Shown here: piece after piece, positions 51,814-64,000 of the stretch
Position numbering within the stretch: position 1 is the stretch's first letter
Layout: each line of letters opens with the position of its first letter
NCBI GenBank assembly: GCA_026394375.1
Contig: JAPKYJ010000027.1
Coordinates: forward strand, 1-64,000
From: Methanomassiliicoccales archaeon
Lineage (GTDB): Archaea; Thermoplasmatota; Thermoplasmata; Methanomassiliicoccales; UBA472
Length of the DNA stretch: 64,000 nucleotides
Reading direction: 5' to 3'
Translations under genes and position numbers: made by a program
Notes under the pieces: generated by a model
What the model saw: only the letters and a program-made list of their open reading frames with translations
Database searches by the model: none
What the model was told of the DNA's origin: nothing

Positions 51814-53757
51814 GTGGACGTGAGTTCGAAACGGAAGGTCACAGGTGAGGACACGGGCAGCGTTCGCTCTGAAGCATCGATGCCCCCCGCTGACCGTTCC
51901 CAGCAGACCGGCGGGGACAAGATGGATGATCTGCGCCGGTGGCTCGCCGGGGAGGAGGCGGGCTTGCTTGATTGGCTGAACGAAGAGGACGAGGCGGGCC
52001 CAGCGGCCTTGGCCGCTCCGAGAGAGGCCAGGCCAGAATCGGAGGAGCTTGCCGTCACTCGCCAGCGGGCGGAGAAGTCCAAGGCGGAGCTCGTCAAGCT
52101 CCGCGCGCTGGTCATGGAAGAGTTGAAATCGCCTCCTGCCCAGCTGAGCGAGAAGGAGACCGCCGAACTCTCGGAGCACCTAAAGAGCATCTTCGAGCAG
52201 ACTGACATCCTACGAGGGCAGTTCGACCTGCTGGCCAAACTCAATCACGATTCGCGGCTGGAGACGGAGAGCGCTTTGGCAGGGCTGCCGAAGGACCAGG
52301 AGGAGCTGGTTCGCAAGCAGATCGAGCTGCGAGAGCGCGAGAGCCTGTTCGAGAACCGGGAAACGGAGCGTTCTTCCGTGAACGAGCTCTCCCAAGAAAT
52401 CGGCGGAGTGGGCGAAGGGGAGCTTGAGAAACGCTTCCGGATGGAGCTCTTGGACAAGGAGACCGAATACCGCGAGAAAGAGAAGGAGTACCATTCCAAG
52501 GTCGACTATCTAGCCGAGGAGCTCAAGAGCAAGAGCCTGGAAATCCAGCAGCTGAAGGAAGAGCTCAATATCGTGCGTATGGGGGCAAAGAACGGCAGCG
52601 CCGTCGTCGAGGGAAGGCTGCGCGAACTGCAGCTCAAGGAGAAGCGCATCGCCCTCATGGAAGAAGAGGCGGCACGCCTTAAGATTGAGATCCGAGAGCG
52701 CGATGATGAGCTGAAGAAGATCAAGGAGGTCGTCGGCTACAAGCAACAGGAGATGATGCGGAGGGAGGAGGACCTCGATTACCGGGAGAAGCTTCTCACC
52801 AATGAGAGGGGCAAGTTCGACGACGTCAAGAAGGATGTCACTGGCGTGGAGGAGGTCGAGCTCAAGAGGCGCATAGAGGAGCTGAAGGCCGAGGTGCAAC
52901 AGAAGGAAGAGGAGCTGCTCATCAAGGAGAAGTACCTCAACGCCAAAGCGGAGGATCTCCGCCTGCGCGAGCAGGGTGTGATCGATGACGAGATCCAGCA
53001 ACGGGAGGAAGAGCGCACCTTGGAGATCCAAGTAGCCAAGGCCAAGACCGGCAACAACCGTTTCGATGATCTGCTCCTGGGTGGCATTCCTTTCGGTTCA
53101 AATGTGCTCATCCATGGCCCTCCGTTCGTAGGTAAGGAGATGATGATGGCGCAGTTCGTAGCCGAGGGCCTGAAGAAGGGTGTGCCAGCCATCTGGGTCA
53201 TCACCGACAAGACGGCCAGGGATACACGAACGGATATGGAATCCGTGCTATCTGGCTATGAGGAGTACGAGCGCCGTGGCCTGGTGAAGTACGTCGACGC
53301 CTATTCTAAGAGCATGGGCGAGGTGACCGACGACCCCTATACCAGCTACATCGACGAACCGACGGACCATGACATGATCATGGAGGCCACCGAGAAGATC
53401 GCTAAGGAGTTCAAGGAGAAGCACAAATACTACCGTCTGGCGTTCCGCTCCCTGTCCACGCTCATCGCCTATTCGGACCCTACCACCGCATTCCGCTTCC
53501 TCAGCCCATTCTGCGGCCGACGCAAGCGCGATGGAGCGGTGTCCATGTACTCCATCGAGAAGGGAGTGCATGGGGAGCAGGAGATCCAGATGCTCGGCTC
53601 CATCATGGACGGCATGATCGATTTCAAGCTGGACCAGCTGAAGAACTTCTTCTCTGTGCAGGGGGTGTGCGACGTGCAATCCCGTTCCTACATCCGATAC
53701 ACGGTGGGCAAGCACGGCCTGAGCATCGGTTCGTTCTCCCTGGACCATATCAGGTGA
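51814..53757 (+). CDS. Coiled-coil protein with RecA/KaiC-like domain
   Basis: A 647-residue protein. After a disordered N-terminus, residues about 75-405 are almost continuous Glu/Lys/Leu-rich coiled coil. Residues about 412-647 form a RecA/KaiC-like domain (NNRFDDLLLGGIPFGSNVLI). The P-loop is GPPFVGKE (435-442), with Glu in place of the Ser/Thr that normally binds magnesium, and a region VDAYSKSMGE follows. Archaeal RAD55/KaiC relatives often act in signalling or motility. GTG start. It is the first plus-strand gene before the pilus operon, 1.1 kb upstream, so a functional link is possible but not shown. Confidence 0.85.
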   Translation: MDVSSKRKVTGEDTGSVRSEASMPPADRSQQTGGDKMDDLRRWLAGEEAGLLDWLNEEDEAGPAALAAPREARPESEELAVTRQRAEKSKAELVKLRALVMEELKSPPAQLSEKETAELSEHLKSIFEQTDILRGQFDLLAKLNHDSRLETESALAGLPKDQEELVRKQIELRERESLFENRETERSSVNELSQEIGGVGEGELEKRFRMELLDKETEYREKEKEYHSKVDYLAEELKSKSLEIQQLKEELNIVRMGAKNGSAVVEGRLRELQLKEKRIALMEEEAARLKIEIRERDDELKKIKEVVGYKQQEMMRREEDLDYREKLLTNERGKFDDVKKDVTGVEEVELKRRIEELKAEVQQKEEELLIKEKYLNAKAEDLRLREQGVIDDEIQQREEERTLEIQVAKAKTGNNRFDDLLLGGIPFGSNVLIHGPPFVGKEMMMAQFVAEGLKKGVPAIWVITDKTARDTRTDMESVLSGYEEYERRGLVKYVDAYSKSMGEVTDDPYTSYIDEPTDHDMIMEATEKIAKEFKEKHKYYRLAFRSLSTLIAYSDPTTAFRFLSPFCGRRKRDGAVSMYSIEKGVHGEQEIQMLGSIMDGMIDFKLDQLKNFFSVQGVCDVQSRSYIRYTVGKHGLSIGSFSLDHIR

Positions 53758-53838: not shown

Positions 53839-54270
53839 TCAGGCAACTTCCACGCCGCTCGAATCGCCACGACGCTTCGGCTGCTGTTGCTGGATGTTAA
53901 TGTGAGGCATGGGGACCGGTGGAGGCAGACGAATGTCGCGCGCCACCAGCATGGTCGTGGGAATGCAGCTCGGCACCACGGTGTTGTGCACCAGGTTCGC
54001 CACCTCGGGCGGCATGGAGCTCTGGCGCTGCCATTCCCCTACCACGTTCGCCACGTCCCCAGAGAGCATGACCTGGCCCTCTATCTTGACGTACCCAAGG
54101 CCGACGTAGTTGGCGGTGAAGCGGAAGTCCACCACCGCCGTATCGTCGGACACGCGGGAGATCTGGGTCACGGTGCTGTTGTGGTCGATGCGGATGTTGT
54201 TCACCTTCTCCCCCTGCTTGGAGAACCGCTTCGCCTCGATGCCCGTAATCTCAAAGCCCTTGACCTGCAT
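53839..54270 (-). CDS. Conserved archaeal beta-rich protein, unknown
   Basis: A 143-residue protein: an N-terminal mixed region, strands DDTAVVDFRFTANYVGLGYV and IEGQVMLSG, then a helix PPEVANLVHNTVVPSC and a proline-rich LPPPVPMP stretch before a polar tail. This order of strands followed by a long helix with HN-x-V resembles SecB-like small chaperones, which is only a suggestion. No signal peptide or catalytic motif. It lies beside the tRNA-Phe gene on the same strand. Confidence 0.65.
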   Translation of the reverse strand: MQVKGFEITGIEAKRFSKQGEKVNNIRIDHNSTVTQISRVSDDTAVVDFRFTANYVGLGYVKIEGQVMLSGDVANVVGEWQRQSSMPPEVANLVHNTVVPSCIPTTMLVARDIRLPPPVPMPHINIQQQQPKRRGDSSGVEVA

Positions 54271-54853: not shown

Positions 54854-54862
54854 TTTATATAT
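54854..54862 (+). promoter_or_regulatory. TATA box of the pilus operon
   Basis: TTTATATAT lies 20-28 bases before ATG 54882 and 47-55 bases before ATG 54909. The first spacing fits a leaderless transcript; the second fits a short leader containing GGAGG. Confidence 0.65.
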
Positions 54863-54881
54863 CTACGAACCGCTCAATCGA

Positions 54882-55874
54882 ATGACTTATTGGAGGACTG
54901 GTCAGCAGATGCTAGCGCCGCGAGAGTGTCGCCTCTTCAGCAAAAAAGACAAGGGCCGCCTTCTCCACCGGGAAAGGGACGAGCGAGGAGTGGCCTCCAC
55001 TGTGGGCACCATCATGGCCCTCCTGGTCTTCCTCACTTTCCTCACCCTATTCACTAATTCATACGTCCCAGTCTGGATGACGGACAACGAACGGACACAC
55101 ATGAACACGGTCTTCAATCAGTTCGGGGACCTCAAGGGCAAAGTGGACAACCTTGTGGTCATGGCCCAGGTGACTGGATCCACGGACATGAGCCTCTACG
55201 CGCCCATCACTCTGGGAGCGGCCGGCATTCCGGTGTTCGCTTCGCCCACCGCGGGGCAGCTGAACTACATGCCGCTCAACCAAGAGAAGAGCACCGTTCG
55301 GATCAAGTTCAGCTACGGTCTGGATATCAACCATCAAACCCTAATGGTCGATTCGCAGGGCGGGGGCATGGTCGAGCTCTACGCTCCCAATCGCTACTAC
55401 GTGGAGCAACGCATCGCCTATGAGAACGGAGCCATATTGGTGAAGCAGAACGATGGGCAACTGATAAGGGCGTTCCCCAGCTTCGAGGTGAACAAGGAAG
55501 GCAGCAATGTGTCATTCTCCTTCACCGAGATAGACTTCGTGGGCAAGAACGCCTCAATGGCCGGGACGGGTATCACTGGGCTGAACATCGACCTCATCTA
55601 CCTGGACCGACAGACCTACACCAACCTCTCTTTTCCGTCTGGCAATCAGGTGCAGGTGAGTCTCAACATAGCCATCACTCTTCACACCCTATATGGAAAG
55701 GCCTGGTACAGCTATCTTAACGAGACCCTCCACGACTCGGGATTGGTGAACAATACCGATTATAGTATGCAGGTGATGAAGGCGGACTACTCCGTCATAG
55801 CGCTGAACCTGAAGACCGTGAGCACTTTCGTTTACAACAAAGCGACGGTGGAGGTCGCCGTCCAGAACGCCTAG
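54882..55874 (+). CDS. Type IV pilin-like secreted protein
   Basis: A 330-residue protein. A basic N-terminus (to about 36) ends at DERG-VASTVGTIMALLVFLTFLTLF, a prepilin-like cleavage context (charged residues, Gly, then a long hydrophobic helix at about 40-62). The rest is an extracellular beta-rich domain with several N-glycosylation sequons (NKEGSNVS, NLSF, NNT). It could be a major pilin or a minor tip protein of the filament. Start: ATG 54882 suits a leaderless message; ATG 54909 has GGAGG 12 bases upstream. First gene of the operon, 8 bases before ATPase 1. Confidence 0.75.
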   Translation: MTYWRTGQQMLAPRECRLFSKKDKGRLLHRERDERGVASTVGTIMALLVFLTFLTLFTNSYVPVWMTDNERTHMNTVFNQFGDLKGKVDNLVVMAQVTGSTDMSLYAPITLGAAGIPVFASPTAGQLNYMPLNQEKSTVRIKFSYGLDINHQTLMVDSQGGGMVELYAPNRYYVEQRIAYENGAILVKQNDGQLIRAFPSFEVNKEGSNVSFSFTEIDFVGKNASMAGTGITGLNIDLIYLDRQTYTNLSFPSGNQVQVSLNIAITLHTLYGKAWYSYLNETLHDSGLVNNTDYSMQVMKADYSVIALNLKTVSTFVYNKATVEVAVQNA

Positions 55875-55882
55875 GTGAGGGG

Positions 55883-57646
55883 ATGAAGACCATCAAGAAG
55901 GACCGGGGGGCCGGTGAGGCCCAGGCGGACGCCCAAGAGCAGGCTGTGGACGTTGATGTGCCAGCCGGAAGGGCGACCGATAGGGTCCGCGATTCCTATC
56001 TGAAGCTTCTGCGCAAGATGGTACCGAACCGGGCCACCCGGGTCCGCCTCCCTGCTGGGCAGGTGGCGCAACGCGTCGAATGGTCCAAGGGACGAGGCTC
56101 GGGAATTACCGAGATCCCCAAGATCGAGGACCCCCAAATCGATGTGGTGGAGGTCTACCCGGTGATGGAGCCCTACAGTTACATCCGGGTCACCTTCAAC
56201 AACGAGAACTCTGAGTATCTGCTAGAGACCATAGAACCGCTTTTGGACGAGAAGGAACAGAAGCTGCTGGAGCTCGTCCGCGACACCATGCAACGCACCC
56301 TTGGCTATGAGTGGGAGAAGCTCACCGAGCTCGACAAGGAGGAATACTTGCGGGAAAGCGTGGAGTCCTTCATTCGCACCCGGGGCATTCGGGTAGACCC
56401 TGTGGCCAAGAAGAAGATCGGATACTACATCATCCGCGATTATATGGGCTATGGCCCCATCGATCCGCTCATCAGAGATGAGGGCATAGAGGACGTTTCC
56501 TGCGACGGGGTCAACGTCTTTCTCTTCACATTCCATCGCAAGTACGAGAGCATCAGGACGCAACTGAAGTTCGACTCGGAGGATAAACTGAACTCGTTCG
56601 TCGTCGCTTTGGCTCAGAGATGCGGCAAGCAGATCTCCGTATCCAATCCTATCCTGGACGGCACGACCCCGGAAGGCCACCGCGTGCAGGCGACCTATTC
56701 TCGCGAGGTGACCACCAGAGGAGGCACCTTCACCATCCGCCGGTTCAAGGAGAAGCCTTTCACGCCCGTGGACCTTATCAAGTACGGCACCGCCAGCCCG
56801 GAGATGATCGCCTACTTCTGGCTTGGTGTGGAGCATGGGGAATCGATGATCATCTGCGGGGGCACCGCTTCGGGCAAGACGGCCACCCTCAACTCCATCG
56901 CTCTCTTCATCCCTCCCGGGGCGAAGATCGTCACCATGGAGGACACGCGCGAGATCAACCTGCCGCACGAGAACTGGATCCCTGGCACGACCCGCTCGGG
57001 GGTGGGGGAGAAGGAGGCCTCGGGCAAGTCACCGGGTGAGATCGACATGTACGATCTTGTTCGCGCGGCGTTGCGACAGAGGCCCAACTACATCATCGTG
57101 GGCGAGGTGCGTGGCAAGGAGACATACATCATGTTCCAGGCCATGGCCACCGGCCACACCACCTATTCCACCATGCACGCCGATTCGGTCAAGAGCATGG
57201 TCAACCGCCTGGAGAACCCACCTATCAACTGCCCCAGGATATTGCTCACTGCGCTGAGGAACGTGATCATCCAGACCCACGCACGCGTGGGCACGGAGCT
57301 GGTCCGACGGATCAAGCAGGTCATCGAGATCGTCGGCTTCGAGCCGGAGACCAACGAGCTCATCACCAATACCGTGTATGAGTGGGACCAGGCCACTGAC
57401 CGGTTCATGTACAAGGGCCATTCCTTCCTTTTCGATAAGATCATGGAGATGAAATCCATGACCCATGAGCAGATGCTGACGGAGTTCAATCGCCGAGTGG
57501 ACATCGTGCGCTACATGGTGTACCGCGACATCACCGACCACCGTAAGATCTGGTCCCTGATCAACTCCTACTACAAGGAGGGGGATAAGACGATCGTACG
57601 CGTGCGCAAGGAGCTACAGGAAGGGGGTCTGGAAGTTGGCGCCTGA
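55883..57646 (+). CDS. Type II/IV secretion ATPase 1 (TadA/GspE-like)
   Basis: A 587-residue hexameric motor ATPase for pilus assembly. The N-terminal domain (about 90-220, with MEPYSYIRVTF and the DYMGYGPIDPLI stretch) is followed by a RecA core: Walker A CGGTASGKT (P-loop 326-333), an Asp-box MEDTREINLPHENW, Walker B region YIIVGEVRGKE and the His box ATGHTTYSTMHAD. All catalytic residues are intact. It overlaps the TadB-like gene by 11 bases. The second, related ATPase in the operon is about 45-50% similar by eye in the core. Confidence 0.93.
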   Translation: MKTIKKDRGAGEAQADAQEQAVDVDVPAGRATDRVRDSYLKLLRKMVPNRATRVRLPAGQVAQRVEWSKGRGSGITEIPKIEDPQIDVVEVYPVMEPYSYIRVTFNNENSEYLLETIEPLLDEKEQKLLELVRDTMQRTLGYEWEKLTELDKEEYLRESVESFIRTRGIRVDPVAKKKIGYYIIRDYMGYGPIDPLIRDEGIEDVSCDGVNVFLFTFHRKYESIRTQLKFDSEDKLNSFVVALAQRCGKQISVSNPILDGTTPEGHRVQATYSREVTTRGGTFTIRRFKEKPFTPVDLIKYGTASPEMIAYFWLGVEHGESMIICGGTASGKTATLNSIALFIPPGAKIVTMEDTREINLPHENWIPGTTRSGVGEKEASGKSPGEIDMYDLVRAALRQRPNYIIVGEVRGKETYIMFQAMATGHTTYSTMHADSVKSMVNRLENPPINCPRILLTALRNVIIQTHARVGTELVRRIKQVIEIVGFEPETNELITNTVYEWDQATDRFMYKGHSFLFDKIMEMKSMTHEQMLTEFNRRVDIVRYMVYRDITDHRKIWSLINSYYKEGDKTIVRVRKELQEGGLEVGA

Positions 57647-58676
57647 GGTTTCCGACATATTTGCCAGGATGGAATCGTCCAAGAAGGGCTACCTGAAGAC
57701 GAAGACCTCTGAGGATGTGGCCGAACATTGGGGACCGCATATGGTTCGACTACCGCAGGGTGCAGTCCCGGAATATGTCAAGCTCACCAAGTATCAGGAG
57801 TTCTCCTGGCGCACCGTGGGCAAGATGGTCAAGGTGCGCGCGAAGCCCAACCCCAAGCTCGAGCTGAGCCTGCTGCAAGCGCATATGCGAATGCGACAGG
57901 AGGAGTTCGTGGCCTATGTCTGGATGAGCGTCATCCTGGTATTGGTTGTGGCTGCGGTCATCGCGCTGACCCTGGGTGGGGTGTTCATCGCCTTCTTGAA
58001 CATCCAGGCCGCCTATGTGTTGATGTTCTCTCTCCTCATCGTGATCATACCCCCGGTCATGGCCTACGTCTTGCTCATGTCCACTCCCGGAAGCAAGGCC
58101 AAGCGCAGATCCCGGGACATAGACAAGCGCATCGGACCGGCCATGAGCTTCATCTCAGCCATGGCCAGCGCGGACGTGAACGTGGATGTCATATTCAAAG
58201 AACTTTCCCGGCAGTCGATTTACGGGGAGATCAAGACCGAGGCGGAATGGATCACTCGAGATACGGAACTATTGGGCATAGATATCCTCACTGCCATCAA
58301 CAAGGCGGCTCAGAGGACGCCCTCATCGAAGTTCCAGGAGTTCCTGCAAGGTGTCGTGACCACCTCCACCTCTGGTGGGCAGCTCAAGCCCTACTTCCTG
58401 CAGAAGGCGGAGCAGTTCGAGAAGGAATCGAAGCTGGACATGCGACAGCAGTTGGAGAGCTTGGGGCTCATGGCGGAGACCTTCGTCACCGTCGTGGTGG
58501 CCTTCCCCCTGTTCCTGGTGGTCATCATGGCCATCATGGCCATCGTGCCAGGCGGCGGAGGGAGTTCGAGTACTACGGTGATGCTGCTCTGGGCGGTGGT
58601 GGGACTGATGATACCATTCTCGCAGTTCGGGTTCATTTTCTTCATCTGGAACTCGACCAAGGAGTCGTCCATATAG
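57636..58676 (+). CDS. Pilus assembly membrane protein 1 (TadB-like)
   Basis: A 346-residue type II secretion F-domain protein. A cytoplasmic N-terminus (about 1-85) is followed by two helices (about 92-118 and 125-145), then the cytoplasmic T2SSF helical domain (ISAMASADVNVDVIFKELSRQ and the later FQEFLQGVVTTSTSGG) and two C-terminal helices (about 280-310 and 315-340). It forms the platform on which the ATPase turns pilin monomers into a filament. TTG start inside the end of the ATPase gene. Confidence 0.9.
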   Translation: MAPEVSDIFARMESSKKGYLKTKTSEDVAEHWGPHMVRLPQGAVPEYVKLTKYQEFSWRTVGKMVKVRAKPNPKLELSLLQAHMRMRQEEFVAYVWMSVILVLVVAAVIALTLGGVFIAFLNIQAAYVLMFSLLIVIIPPVMAYVLLMSTPGSKAKRRSRDIDKRIGPAMSFISAMASADVNVDVIFKELSRQSIYGEIKTEAEWITRDTELLGIDILTAINKAAQRTPSSKFQEFLQGVVTTSTSGGQLKPYFLQKAEQFEKESKLDMRQQLESLGLMAETFVTVVVAFPLFLVVIMAIMAIVPGGGGSSSTTVMLLWAVVGLMIPFSQFGFIFFIWNSTKESSI

Positions 58677-58686
58677 GGTGGTTACC

Positions 58687-59592
58687 ATGGCAGAGAAAGA
58701 CCTATTGGACCTGAGTGAGCTGGAACGGAGCAAGAAGGACCTGAGCCGCACATTGCTCCTTGGCGGCCTGGTGATTGCGATAATCTTCTTCTTCATAGGG
58801 GCCTTGGAAGCCATCGGCGGCATCAACACCGGCCTGCTATCGATCGACTACATGGCCATCGGCTTGATGGCCCTCTGCGGACCATATGGATTCTACACCA
58901 CCTATCGCTACAATAAGGTGAAGGCGATCGAGTCTCGCCTGCCGGATTTCCTGAGGGATGTGGCCGAGGCTGGCCGCTTCGGCATGACCCTGGCGGAGGC
59001 CATCAAGGTCGCCAGCCGAGGCCGCTATGGTGGATTGACGACCGAGATCAGGCGCATGGCGGCTCAGATCGACTGGGGAGTGCCCGCCGCCGAGGCGATA
59101 AGGTTGTTCTCTGAGCGCGTCGACACCCCTCTGGTTCGAAGGATGATGGCCATCATCATCAAGGCCAACGACGCGGGGGGAAACGTGGCGGACGTCCTTA
59201 CCATGGTCGCCCACGATTCCCGTGAGGCGATGCTCGCCCAGGAGGAGCGCAGGATCGCCATGGCCACCTACACGGTCGTCATCTATGTCTCGTTCATGGT
59301 GTTCATCGCCACCATATTCATCCTCAACACCACCTTTCTGCCCAAGATGCTGGAAGCGGGCAGTCAAGTGTCGAAGGGGGCGGAGGCAGCGGGCATCACC
59401 AACATGCCGGCCACCATCAAGACCGACATCATCCCTACCGTCCAGTTCATATTCGTGGTCGCGGTGATAATCCATGCCTTCGGTGACGGCATCCTGGCAG
59501 GGGTTTTGCAGGATGGCAGGATACAGAACGGCATGAGACATAGTTTCATCATGCTGCTGGTGGGCTTGATTGGCACACGGTTGATAGGGTGA
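58687..59592 (+). CDS. Pilus assembly membrane protein 2 (TadC-like)
   Basis: A 301-residue F-domain protein, paired with the TadB-like one. Two N-terminal helices (about 25-48 and 52-70), a cytoplasmic domain (FLRDVAEAGRFGMTLAEAIK, then MMAIIIKANDAGGNVADVL) and three helices at the end. The open frame begins at GTG 58678; ATG 58687 has AGGGTGG before it. It ends 4 bases before the second ATPase gene. Confidence 0.9.
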   Translation: MAEKDLLDLSELERSKKDLSRTLLLGGLVIAIIFFFIGALEAIGGINTGLLSIDYMAIGLMALCGPYGFYTTYRYNKVKAIESRLPDFLRDVAEAGRFGMTLAEAIKVASRGRYGGLTTEIRRMAAQIDWGVPAAEAIRLFSERVDTPLVRRMMAIIIKANDAGGNVADVLTMVAHDSREAMLAQEERRIAMATYTVVIYVSFMVFIATIFILNTTFLPKMLEAGSQVSKGAEAAGITNMPATIKTDIIPTVQFIFVVAVIIHAFGDGILAGVLQDGRIQNGMRHSFIMLLVGLIGTRLIG

Positions 59593-59596
59593 TTGA

Positions 59597-61273
59597 ATGG
59601 CAGTGAGCGAGAAGGAACGGGCCATGGCCGCGGACGCGGGTTTGGAGGAACGCAGGTCAGAGCTCAAGGCCGGCTATATGAAACTCCTCCTGCGGATGAA
59701 GAAGAAGCCCATGAAAGTGCGCGTCGCCAGCAAGGTGACGACCGAAACGGACGTGATCACCGATATCCCCCCGATCTCCGACCCCAACATCGACGAGGTG
59801 GAGATCAACGCCGTCCTCGACCCCTACAGCTTCGTCAGGATCAAATACGACAACATGGCCTCGGAGTACCTCTACGAGGTCATAGAACCCACGCTCTCTG
59901 AGGACGAACGCTCCTTGCTAGATGTGCTGAAGAGCGCCCTAATAATGACCCTGAACCTGACCCCGCTGAGCACGCCCAAGGAGAAAGAGGTCATCGTCAA
60001 GGAAGGCACGGAGGAGCTTATGCGCAAATTCGGCATAAGCCTCAACCCGATATCAAAGGAGCGCATCTTCTACTACCTGCGCCGAGATTTCATCGGGTAT
60101 GGGGTCATCGACCCGATGATGGTCGATCCCAACGTGGAGGATTGCTCCTGTGATGGGGTGGACATTCCGTTCTTCATCTTCCATCGGAAATATGGCTCGA
60201 TCCGCAGCAACATCAGGTTCGAGAAGGAGAACGAGCTTGATTCTTTCGTGATCTGGCTGGCGCAGAAGTGCGGCAAGCACATCTCCGTGGCCGATCCGCT
60301 GCTCGATGCCACCATACCTGACGGTTCGAGGCTGAACGCCACTCTAGGCAAGCACGTGACCAAGCGGGGTTCCTCTTTCACCATCAGGCGCTTCAAGGAG
60401 AACCCGTTCACTCCCATCGACCTGCTCAAGTTCAAGACCATGAGCACCGACATGATGGCCTACTTGTGGACCGCTACCGAGTACGGCAGCTCGATGCTGG
60501 TCTGCGGCGGCACCGCATCGGGCAAGACCACCACTTTGAACGCGGTATTGCTCTTCATCCCTCCGCAGATGAAGATCGTGAGCATCGAGGACACCCGTGA
60601 GCTGAACCTGCCGCACGAGAACTGGATCCCGGCGCTGACCAGGGAGGGCTTCGGCGGCAAGAAATCGTCTTCGACCGGAGGCATCGACATGTTCGACCTC
60701 CTCACCTCCGCCTTGAGGCAAAGGCCGCAGTACCTGATGGTCGGCGAGGTCCGAGGCAAGGAGGCCTATGTGGTGTTCCAGGCCATGGCCACGGGCAAGA
60801 CCGCCTATTCCACTTTCCACGCAGAGGATGTGCAGGCGATGGTGCACCGCATGGAGAACGATCCTATAAATCTGCCCCGTGCTCTCTTGACCGCCCTGGA
60901 CATCGTGCTGTTGCAGGCGCAGGTGAAGGTGGGCACCAAGATGACCCGGCGGGTGAAATCGCTCACGGAGATCGTGGGCATGGACCCGGAGACCGGCGAG
61001 CTGATCACCAACTCCGTCTATACTTGGAACCCGGCGGACGACACCTTCAACTTCTCCGGCCACTCCTACGTTTACGAGAAAGTGCGCACCATCCGCAACT
61101 GGTCGCCCAGGGAGATGGAGCGCGAGGTGAAACGCCGGGTGGACATCTTGGAATACATGAAGAAGTCCGGGTTCGACAACTATCGGCAGGTGGCCAAGAT
61201 CATCTCCGCCTACTACAAGGACCCGGAGAAATTGGGCAAGGAGATACGAGAGAAACTGCAGCAGATGGGCTGA
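59597..61273 (+). CDS. Type II/IV secretion ATPase 2 (TadA/GspE-like)
   Basis: A 558-residue motor ATPase, a paralogue of ATPase 1. It has the same order: an N-terminal domain with DPYSFVRIKYDN and FIGYGVIDPMM, Walker A CGGTASGKT (P-loop 304-311), IEDTRELNLPHENW, LMVGEVRGKE and ATGKTAYSTFHAE. The His-box residue after ATG is Lys here where ATPase 1 has His. Fully intact. The N-terminal 80 residues differ from ATPase 1, as would be needed for a different partner. Last gene before a terminator, so the two motors flank one membrane-platform pair. Confidence 0.93.
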   Translation: MAVSEKERAMAADAGLEERRSELKAGYMKLLLRMKKKPMKVRVASKVTTETDVITDIPPISDPNIDEVEINAVLDPYSFVRIKYDNMASEYLYEVIEPTLSEDERSLLDVLKSALIMTLNLTPLSTPKEKEVIVKEGTEELMRKFGISLNPISKERIFYYLRRDFIGYGVIDPMMVDPNVEDCSCDGVDIPFFIFHRKYGSIRSNIRFEKENELDSFVIWLAQKCGKHISVADPLLDATIPDGSRLNATLGKHVTKRGSSFTIRRFKENPFTPIDLLKFKTMSTDMMAYLWTATEYGSSMLVCGGTASGKTTTLNAVLLFIPPQMKIVSIEDTRELNLPHENWIPALTREGFGGKKSSSTGGIDMFDLLTSALRQRPQYLMVGEVRGKEAYVVFQAMATGKTAYSTFHAEDVQAMVHRMENDPINLPRALLTALDIVLLQAQVKVGTKMTRRVKSLTEIVGMDPETGELITNSVYTWNPADDTFNFSGHSYVYEKVRTIRNWSPREMEREVKRRVDILEYMKKSGFDNYRQVAKIISAYYKDPEKLGKEIREKLQQMG

Positions 61274-61433: not shown

Positions 61434-64000
61434 TCAGCCCGACGGGGGCGCCTGGTCGCTCGGTCCTTCGGTCGAGGGTTGCTCGGGCAGCTCTTCCTCG
61501 GATTTGGGCTCCTCCGGCTTCGCCTCCTTCTTGGGGATGAGCTTCTTCTCCGCCGGCCGCCTGACGATGCGGCGCATCGGCTTCTGCTCCCCTTCCGTCG
61601 GCGACTCCACGCCCTCGACCTTCTGATCGAAGACCGTCCCGCACTTGTGGCACACCGTCGAGCCCTTGGGGTTCAAGGTGCCGCAGACCGGGCAGGGGAA
61701 GGCGGTGGCACCGGTGGCGGTCTTGCGCTTCTCCTCTTCCTGGGAGAGCCACTTCTCGAAGCTCACGTAGGTGGGCTGCTTCTTCCACCACTCCATGAAC
61801 CGGGACTCGTTGTACTTCTTGCCCAGGGCCGCCTTGCCTTGCTCGCGGAACGTGTCCACGTGGGCTCCATACTGCTGGCGCATGCCGCGGATGAACTCGT
61901 CCTCTTCCTCCGCCAATGGTTCGGTGACGAACCGGGCCCCGCACTCCGGACACTCGGCTGCGGTGACGGGGATCCAGGCTCCGCACTGGCTGCACTTCGC
62001 CGTTCCGGTCTCGAACTCGGTGCCGCACTTGGGGCACTTCTTCGAGCTCTCAGGTATCAGCGCGCCGCACTCACCGCACTCCACCATCTTGCCCAGTCCG
62101 TACCGGTACAGATAGATGGAGAAGGCGATGATGATCGCCAGGACGAACAGGATGATGAGGATCCAGACCCAGAATGGCATGCTGGTCTCGCCCGCCTGCG
62201 CTGTGACTTTGATGTCCTGATGGTTCTCGTACGGCTGGCCGCCCAGAGTCACCTGGATGTAGACGCGGTAATCGCCTTGCAGGTTCGCTAGCACGTGCAC
62301 CGTCACCGAGTAGTAGCCGTTCGCTGCGGTGGTCTGGGTCACACCGATGACCAGGGTCTGACCGGCCATGTCCCTCAGTATGGCGGTGACCTGAGCGCCT
62401 TGCAACGGCTGCGGGTCGGCGGTTGACTTCTTGACGTACCCATAGATCGATATGTCCACGTCCGGTTTGTACTCAGAGCCAGAAGGCAGATTTATCTCGA
62501 TGACCGGGGTGGCTTGCTTGACCTGGAACAACCTATCTACCTGGTTGTTCAGCTCCGATACTTCCAGTATCTGGTTCAACGGGTCGATGGCCGCCCTGAG
62601 GGTGTAGTTGCCCTTGGTAACGGTGACGCGCCAGGTCAACTGGAGTACCTTCGATTCGTTAGGCAGGAACGTGCTCGTCACATTGCCGAGGCTCCACAGT
62701 ACGCCATCGGTACCGTTGATCCTGAACTGCACGCGCACGTTAGGAGCGCCCGAATAGCCGTCATTCTTGACGGTCACCCAGAGCACCAGCGTCTGGCCTT
62801 CGGTGGTGTTGTTCACGCTTTGACCGCCGGAGGTGACGTCGATGCCGCCCACGAATTGCAGGTCCGGCCGCATGTCGATGACCCGGACCGAGGCGCTGAA
62901 CGTTCCGCTGGCATGCCCGATCTTCCGCACCTGGTTCAGCGGGTCCACCTGCACGGTTATGGTGCGGTCCTGGACCTTGCCGGCGGTGTTGGGGGTGACC
63001 TGCCACTGGCCGCGCTTGATGATCGTCTGTTGCGGATCTATCTGGCCTATGATCTCTTGGTCGATGAGCGTACCCGTGCCCGCCGCTCCGAGCCAGTAGT
63101 AGACCAGCACCTGGGTGGCCGTCGTTTCGCCAACGTTGGTCACGGTGGCGTCTATGTAGAGCAGATCGCCAACATGAGGTGTGTTGGGAGTGAACTGCAG
63201 GCCCGTGGCGGAGAAGTCAGCGTAGTTGCGCACCGTCACTGGGTAGGAAACATTGTTGTTCGAATGGATGTGCTCAGGGATTGGCGGGATGCCCACGTTC
63301 AGCTTGATTAGCATGGTGTGCGCACCCGGCACGGTCGGCGTCCAGCTCACCGCTGCGCTCGCAGTGCCTCCAGCGGCCACCTTGGTTATCATGAAGTAGC
63401 GAATCGCTGGCTGCGGTCCGATCGGCACGATGTCGGTCAGGCTCCAGTTCAGGCTGTTTGCGTCCTTATCCCCGATGTTGTGCACCACGATGCTGATGGA
63501 TGAGCTGGTGTTCGTAGTAGGAGATAGCGGCACGACCGTCACATCGATCATAGATATGGACAGCTCGGCGATGCCCCATACGTTCACAGTGGTCCAGTTC
63601 TCATTGTTGTGCTTGTTCATCTCCGGGATGGCGCCCTCCGGGTCCAGTATCACGGATAGATTGTGCTTGCCCGGATTGACAGCGGTCCAAACGGTCTGCA
63701 ACTGCACCGTCTGGTGCGGCACGATCTTGGGGATTATGATGTCTATGATCGTGGCCATGTTGTCACTGAAGTTGTCCCTGAAGCGCACCAGGACGTTGTT
63801 GGCCGGGACCACTCCTATGTTGGAGACATAGGTGGTCAGCGTGACCAGATCTCCCCGATTGGGATTGGTGCCGTTGGGGCTTGTCACGTAGAAAGGCGGG
63901 TCCAGGTCCGGCAGCGCTCCTGCGACGAGGAGCTGCACGAACTTGTCGTTCTGCAACAGTGGCTCGCTATAGGGCGCCAATGATGCGGGCGTGTACCTTA
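61434..64000 (-). CDS. CARDB-repeat surface protein with cytoplasmic zinc ribbons (partial)
   Basis: At least 850 residues; the frame is open through the window end, so the N-terminus is missing. About 600 residues are repeated CARDB/Ig-like adhesion domains (TYVSNIGVVPANNVLVRF, VHNIGDKDANSLNW, VTNVGETTATQVLV and VKNDGYSGAPNVRVQF are repeat starts). One membrane helix follows (WVWILIILFVLAIIIAFSIYL). The roughly 200-residue tail lies inside the cell and has three zinc ribbons (CGECG/CPKCG, CSQCG/CPECG, CPVCG/CHKCG) and a charged end. An adhesin-like protein with inner regulatory or anchoring ribbons; its convergence with the pilus operon suggests but does not prove a link. Confidence 0.85.
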   Translation of the reverse strand, partial: RYTPASLAPYSEPLLQNDKFVQLLVAGALPDLDPPFYVTSPNGTNPNRGDLVTLTTYVSNIGVVPANNVLVRFRDNFSDNMATIIDIIIPKIVPHQTVQLQTVWTAVNPGKHNLSVILDPEGAIPEMNKHNNENWTTVNVWGIAELSISMIDVTVVPLSPTTNTSSSISIVVHNIGDKDANSLNWSLTDIVPIGPQPAIRYFMITKVAAGGTASAAVSWTPTVPGAHTMLIKLNVGIPPIPEHIHSNNNVSYPVTVRNYADFSATGLQFTPNTPHVGDLLYIDATVTNVGETTATQVLVYYWLGAAGTGTLIDQEIIGQIDPQQTIIKRGQWQVTPNTAGKVQDRTITVQVDPLNQVRKIGHASGTFSASVRVIDMRPDLQFVGGIDVTSGGQSVNNTTEGQTLVLWVTVKNDGYSGAPNVRVQFRINGTDGVLWSLGNVTSTFLPNESKVLQLTWRVTVTKGNYTLRAAIDPLNQILEVSELNNQVDRLFQVKQATPVIEINLPSGSEYKPDVDISIYGYVKKSTADPQPLQGAQVTAILRDMAGQTLVIGVTQTTAANGYYSVTVHVLANLQGDYRVYIQVTLGGQPYENHQDIKVTAQAGETSMPFWVWILIILFVLAIIIAFSIYLYRYGLGKMVECGECGALIPESSKKCPKCGTEFETGTAKCSQCGAWIPVTAAECPECGARFVTEPLAEEEDEFIRGMRQQYGAHVDTFREQGKAALGKKYNESRFMEWWKKQPTYVSFEKWLSQEEEKRKTATGATAFPCPVCGTLNPKGSTVCHKCGTVFDQKVEGVESPTEGEQKPMRRIVRRPAEKKLIPKKEAKPEEPKSEEELPEQPSTEGPSDQAPPSG

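Follow-up and report, generated by a model that had tools for sequence, protein, structure and literature searches.

The window analysed here is a stretch of 64,000 nucleotides from a Methanomassiliicoccales archaeon (class Thermoplasmata; contig JAPKYJ010000027.1), and this report concerns a pilus operon at positions 54882-61273 and the two motor ATPases that it encodes. The operon consists of five head-to-tail genes for a pilin-like protein, a first ATPase (E1), two platform proteins (Fa and Fb) and a second ATPase (E2). An initial annotation had described this order, with gaps or overlaps of less than 12 bases, and both the open reading frames (ORFs) and the junction sequences agree with it (an 8-base gap, an 11-base overlap, a 1-base gap and a 4-base gap). 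The genes and their diagnostic residues are listed below. Residue counts labelled core refer to 77 E1/E2 pairs from the class, the full set being 97 class pairs.

54882..55874, + strand: pilin-like protein, probably a minor pilin; ORF with a class III-type signal peptide (...DERG/VASTVGTIMALLVFLTFL) and a weak DUF7289 match
55883..57646, + strand: motor ATPase E1 (587 amino acids, aa), the motor in first position, with His in its HIS box; T2SSE 3.5e-34; 2OAP is the best Protein Data Bank match; Foldseek 2oap E=1.5e-57
56678..56680, + strand: E1 His266 of the PEGHR motif, where E2 and almost every single-motor relative have Ser
56882..56884, + strand: E1 Ala334, right behind the Walker A GKT, a site with Ser or Ala in E1 and with Thr in E2
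57155..57157, + strand: E1 His425, first HIS-box His; His in 77/77 core E1
57636..58676, + strand: platform half Fa, FlaJ/ArlJ-type N-terminal half; one T2SSF domain (6.2e-13); ArlJ positions 15-244/555
58678..59592, + strand: platform half Fb, FlaJ/ArlJ-type C-terminal half; one T2SSF domain (3.2e-18); ArlJ positions 262-541/555 and 169-447/465
59597..61273, + strand: motor ATPase E2 (558 aa), the motor in last position, with Lys in its HIS box; T2SSE 4.2e-33; 2OAP 4.4e-134; Foldseek 2oap E=2.1e-58
60797..60799, + strand: E2 Lys401 replacing the first HIS-box His; Lys 63, Thr 9, His 5 of 77 core E2; Arg in family f19

Fa starts with TTG at 57636 (an alternative ATG is possible at 57669) and Fb with GTG, and the real start codon of the pilin-like gene may lie inside the annotated ORF. 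The pilin-like protein has a GVASTVGTIMALLVF segment of the class III signal-peptide type, which is strongly conserved across the class. Each ATPase has a Pfam T2SSE match with E about 1e-34. The statement that they differ over their first 80-100 residues held only in part; in BLASTP the two align from E1 residue 18 onwards, and both have a predicted Y(L/M)KLL helix. The platform genes had been called TadB-like and TadC-like. There are indeed two of them, but the label is loose: because Fa corresponds to the N-terminal and Fb to the C-terminal half of FlaJ/ArlJ, the platform is one split protein and not a duplicated one.

Family and distribution of the machine

Judged by its sequences, the machine is an archaeal type IV pilus (T4P) of the euryarchaeal PilB3/GspE type. 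The PilB3_C domain scores 30.9 bits in E2 (cut-off 27) and 25.6 bits in E1, just under the cut-off. In sequence searches A. fulgidus GspE (2OAP) was the best solved relative of both motors. It was also the top structural match of the AlphaFold models (pLDDT 78 for E1 and 80 for E2), followed by S. acidocaldarius FlaI, with CpaF, VirB11, PilB and PilT as more distant matches; the N-termini of both models are of low confidence except for one helix. The euryarchaeal clade-2 T4P, represented by Haloferax PilB3/PilB4 and A. fulgidus GspE, likewise have a PilB3_C domain and an ATPase adjoining the platform. They differ in having one ATPase, which in the Archaeoglobi loci that were read has an undivided platform about 620 aa long as its neighbour.

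The Tad framing of the initial annotation did not hold. Tad family TIGR03819 (cut-off 373.15) scored 143.9 and 148.6 bits, E2 matched CpaF with 147 bits compared with 451 bits for GspE, and no match to an A24-type prepilin peptidase (TadV/CpaA type; PF01478) was found in the genome. Tad/Epd pili (CpaF, CpaG, CpaH) do resemble the present system in their two single-domain platform proteins and VirB11-type motor, but they use a single bifunctional motor where two are found here. A PibD/FlaK-type prepilin peptidase (Pfam PF06847) scored above cut-off elsewhere in the genome (C22:44226-44471). An archaellum was also rejected, as the ArlI family NF058587 gave 413.8 and 443.5 bits (cut-off 550) and the platform is split, and no archaellum-type motor was found in the genome. 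Its only further T2SSE protein is distant, so the E1/E2 system appears to be the sole pilus motor system. The source genome encodes McrA, as do nearly all members of the order, and a methanogenic order within this group suggests Methanomassiliicoccales.

The gene order is conserved in relatives. All five genes stand in the same order in 20/20 loci of the order. A search of 200 genomes across the class gave matches in 156, and E1-Fa-Fb-E2 was intact in 97 operons. About 100 class operons were read, and this arrangement was found in all that were not cut by a contig end, the version in genus g49 being decayed. The class loci had been selected via their ATPase matches, so the count of operon order is by itself biased. 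Among class genomes at least 95% complete, a single match at E<=1e-50 was found in only four, all of genus g49 (hand count), and these four matches carry archaellum-type scores. The motor pair is present in family f19 (probably Thermoplasmatales), is missing from some of its genera and is missing from most of family f2.

Two observations on individual loci may be added. In genus g49, locus L138 (genome G097) has a strongly decayed E-Fa-Fb-E set whose first ATPase seems to lack catalytic residues, a tentative assignment given the poor alignment. Separately, two E2 matches (G106:C50:8854-10446 and G101:C1:110137-111615) contain one in-frame stop each, owing to a sequencing error or to pseudogene status.

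Outside the class, most loci combine one ATPase with a split platform. From this, the simplest reading is that the platform was split earlier and the motor duplicated later. Two ATPases were found in an E-Fa-Fb-E order in families f34 and f47, and in an E-E-Fa-Fb order in families f39, f45 and f41. Four archaellum-type loci, L223:11013-16145 (G069), L219:5428-10532 (G230), L220:4104-9258 (G251) and L221:7544-12545 (G237), encode two tandem ArlI-type ATPases followed by one unsplit ArlJ-type platform. Five ATPases tested from these loci scored 671-740 bits (cut-off 550), and the pair in L219 is 61% identical. ArlG- and ArlH-like genes lie upstream in L219 and L223, with archaellins also in L223.

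Age and catalytic-site asymmetry of E1 and E2

FastTree and IQ-TREE both part core E1 from core E2. In the IQ-TREE analysis, core E1 forms one clade (SH-aLRT/UFBoot 94.7/96) and core E2 stands apart. E1 and E2 are therefore not recent duplicates; the initial annotation had named two separate old clades as one outcome and a recent duplicate limited to the strain as the opposite one, and it is the former that was found. The fast-evolving copies of families f19 and f30 are basal in the tree, with their E1s together and their E2s apart from them, and this deep placement is probably due to long-branch attraction. A tree in which they are made to join the core clades of E1 and E2 is worse by 4.4 log units and was not rejected (AU p=0.555). 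The sequences are thus compatible with one class-wide duplication, in the sense that the trees do not reject it. Adding the f34/f47 and f39/f45 pairs to the same duplication was not rejected at 5% either (AU p=0.089), and recurrent duplication or gene conversion is possible. The f41 tandem pair (L184 and L185; E-E-Fa-Fb) clusters among sequences from single-motor systems and is apparently a separate tandem duplication of a pilus ATPase.

Walker A, Asp box and VGEVRG had been reported in both ATPases and are present, as is the second HIS-box His. In 97/97 class pairs, both motors retain the Walker A Lys, the Asp-box Glu, the Walker B Glu and the second HIS-box His. An inactive copy, which would have spoken against two working motors, is thus rejected, the core catalytic residues being intact in both. 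E1 and E2 differ at positions that hardly vary across the wider family. The contrast between ATGHT and ATGKT in the HIS box (H425 in E1, K401 in E2) had been noticed before, and it proved to be a conserved asymmetry across the core pairs. There the first HIS-box residue is His in all 77 E1, and Lys (63), Thr (9) or His (5) in E2. The combination is His/Arg in 12 of the 15 f19/f30 pairs and His/Lys in 5/5 pairs of f34/f47 and f39/f45. Both copies of the f41 tandem have His, as do 53 of 58 single-motor relatives. Moreover, the residue behind the Walker A GKT is Ser or Ala in 77/77 core E1 and Thr in 76/77 core E2. At the PDGSR motif, core E1 reads PEGHR, with His for Ser in 77/77, and the Ser is kept in 77/77 core E2.

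The Arg of the PDGSR motif and that of FTIRRF are, by position, candidate arginine fingers. In PilB, the HIS-box residue H420 touches the gamma-phosphate as well as Thr411 of the adjacent packing unit (PMC5424180). By residue count from the catalytic Glu, H420 corresponds to the second His and Thr411 to the T of the TGH/TGK motif. By this analogy with PilB, K401 of E2 would lie beside the inter-subunit catalytic interface. Covariation of E2-401 with other sites gave weak associations that follow the clades. The central (pore) loop measures about 19-20 aa in most copies of both motors, longer than in Archaeoglobi, and is more acidic in E1, which is not decisive.

These results bear on the simplest account of two motors in one operon, namely that they are recent or interchangeable duplicates kept for dosage or redundancy, or that one copy is inactive. 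E1 and E2 are 49% identical (BLASTP) and have the same fold, as such an account would have it. Nevertheless, with old separate clades, fixed differences in the 77 core pairs and conserved Walker A, Asp-box and Walker B residues throughout the class, it is very improbable. E1 and E2 very probably constitute an ancient asymmetric pair.

Possible roles of the two motors

The initial annotation had suggested that one motor may extend and the other retract a filament. On this proposal, separate E1 and E2 homohexamers would alternate on Fa/Fb in the manner of PilB and PilT, having evolved independently of them. Two intact motors with conserved catalytic-site differences fit such a division, bacteria offer a precedent in their separate extension and retraction motors, and the same idea was raised in the study of Cuniculiplasma (PMC12448462). 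Against it, neither ATPase is PilT-like, and PilT homology was rejected at the family level (TIGR01420 48.2 and 43.2 bits, cut-off 319.1). Furthermore, archaeal Aap and bacterial Tad pili retract using one ATPase, so a second motor is unnecessary for retraction. C. divulgatum is described as having the pair and yet no twitching, though retraction without twitching is possible. A division by direction was thus not confirmed and is rather unlikely.

A second proposal from the same source placed each ATPase on a different platform subunit. Rate covariation across the 97 operons lends this no support, as links between the ATPases and the platform halves are weak and neither ATPase prefers Fa or Fb. 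When distances were correlated over the 97 operons and over the 77 core operons alone, the strongest partial correlation was that between E1 and E2 (0.67 in core, 5-95% range 0.63-0.71), followed by that between Fa and Fb (0.48). Mean divergence is equal for the two motors (0.80 for E1 and 0.79 for E2).

The same data bear on whether E2 could be an accessory motor, a PilU-like second ring that works only via E1 and boosts or regulates it. PilU provides the precedent, being functional only together with PilT (PMC6762196), and E2 is the copy without the first HIS-box His in most lineages. Yet E2 is as constrained as E1 and has retained more of the ancestral residues at diagnostic positions, and near-complete class genomes outside genus g49 are never down to one copy. 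PilU is often dispensable, and E2 does not look dispensable. An accessory role is accordingly improbable.

Since E1 and E2 are co-encoded, equally constrained and unreduced in near-complete class genomes outside g49, both look like needed parts of one machine. The following arrangement is proposed. An old duplication of the motor gave rise to two dedicated asymmetric paralogs serving a platform split into Fa and Fb, and these most likely act jointly in the same machine and not as alternatives. E1 and E2 would alternate in a hexamer with three-fold symmetry, and each Fa:Fb heterodimer would sit on one E1:E2 pair, so that an (E1E2)3 ring matches an (Fa:Fb)3 platform one to one. The E1 and E2 sites would have different catalytic roles, as in other paralog-built rings. 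Maturation of the pilins would fall to the PibD/FlaK-type peptidase whose gene lies elsewhere in the genome, and the moving platform would pull them out of the membrane. In the Tad motor model, CpaG/CpaH heterodimers bridge two adjacent ATPase subunits in a 6:3:3 assembly (PMC11300603), and by analogy this motor may serve as a geometric model for the mixed ring.

Several points weigh against a mixed ring. We know of no solved motor of the superfamily that is other than a homohexamer. PilU has been argued not to intermix with PilT (PMC6762196). K401 is not universal, with Thr or His in 14/77 core E2, and the first HIS-box His is replaced by Ile in the archaellum-type motors of relatives, so that not every motor depends on it. 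Split platforms occur with one ATPase in many archaeal systems, and the platform is unsplit in the archaellum loci that have two tandem ATPases; as each occurs without the other, platform split and motor duplication are not strictly tied. Finally, rate covariation within one protein family is a weak argument, and shared family may partly explain the link between E1 and E2. Joint action of E1 and E2 in one mixed ring is therefore put forward tentatively, at slightly below even chances. It is possible, though doubtful, that the operon encodes a type IV filament motor that is naturally heteromeric, the first of its kind, in the form of an alternating hexamer with two kinds of catalytic site on a heterodimeric split platform, conserved in the class since one ancient duplication.

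The surroundings of the operon are also partly conserved. Upstream lie a KaiC-like ATPase with a long predicted coiled coil (51814-53757, + strand) and an unnamed 143-aa protein (53839-54270, - strand), which keep their position in most loci of the order and of families f8 and f21. The KaiC-like ATPase is possibly a FlaH-like regulator; it scores 26.5 bits to ArlH (cut-off 215). A convergent gene for a large surface protein that carries CARDB repeats and zinc ribbons (61434-63980, - strand) adjoins the operon in many class loci.

Loci with two ATPases have been mentioned before. Two ATPases were recorded in one Aciduliprofundum locus (Makarova et al., 2016; PMC4858521). The A. boonei T4P locus resembles the present one in encoding two distinct ATPases together with a single PilA-like pilin gene; it appears there as a census remark, the main text giving no functional or residue-level analysis. 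A paper on Cuniculiplasmataceae from the same year described an ATPase, two platform genes and an ATPase in C. divulgatum and likened them to Aciduliprofundum (PMC5155288). In 2025 a paper in ISME J gave the genes their names, described the two ATPases as unique and the need for them as enigmatic, and saw no twitching (PMC12448462). By these published descriptions, the CdiP system (cdiPE1, cdiPE2, cdiPFa, cdiPFb; CSP5_0712-0715) belongs to a member of the Thermoplasmata without an archaellum, and its two ATPases flank a platform split into N- and C-terminal parts. It differs in that its pilins lie about 500 kb away, compared with the pilin-like gene before E1 in the window. The operon has the CdiP-like layout of two T2SSE ATPases and a two-gene platform in the order ATPase-platform-platform-ATPase and adds one more case to the Cuniculiplasma/Aciduliprofundum two-ATPase kind. 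The spread of the pair through the class, its age and its fixed residue differences appear previously undescribed, as far as the available text of these papers goes.

Archaeal pili and archaella are commonly taken to run on one multifunctional ATPase. In a large class of archaea, the two-motor operon is instead the rule and is old, not a unique outlier. The fixed catalytic-site differences give concrete residues to mutate, and the question of why there are two motors becomes a testable one about direction and symmetry in this motor family.

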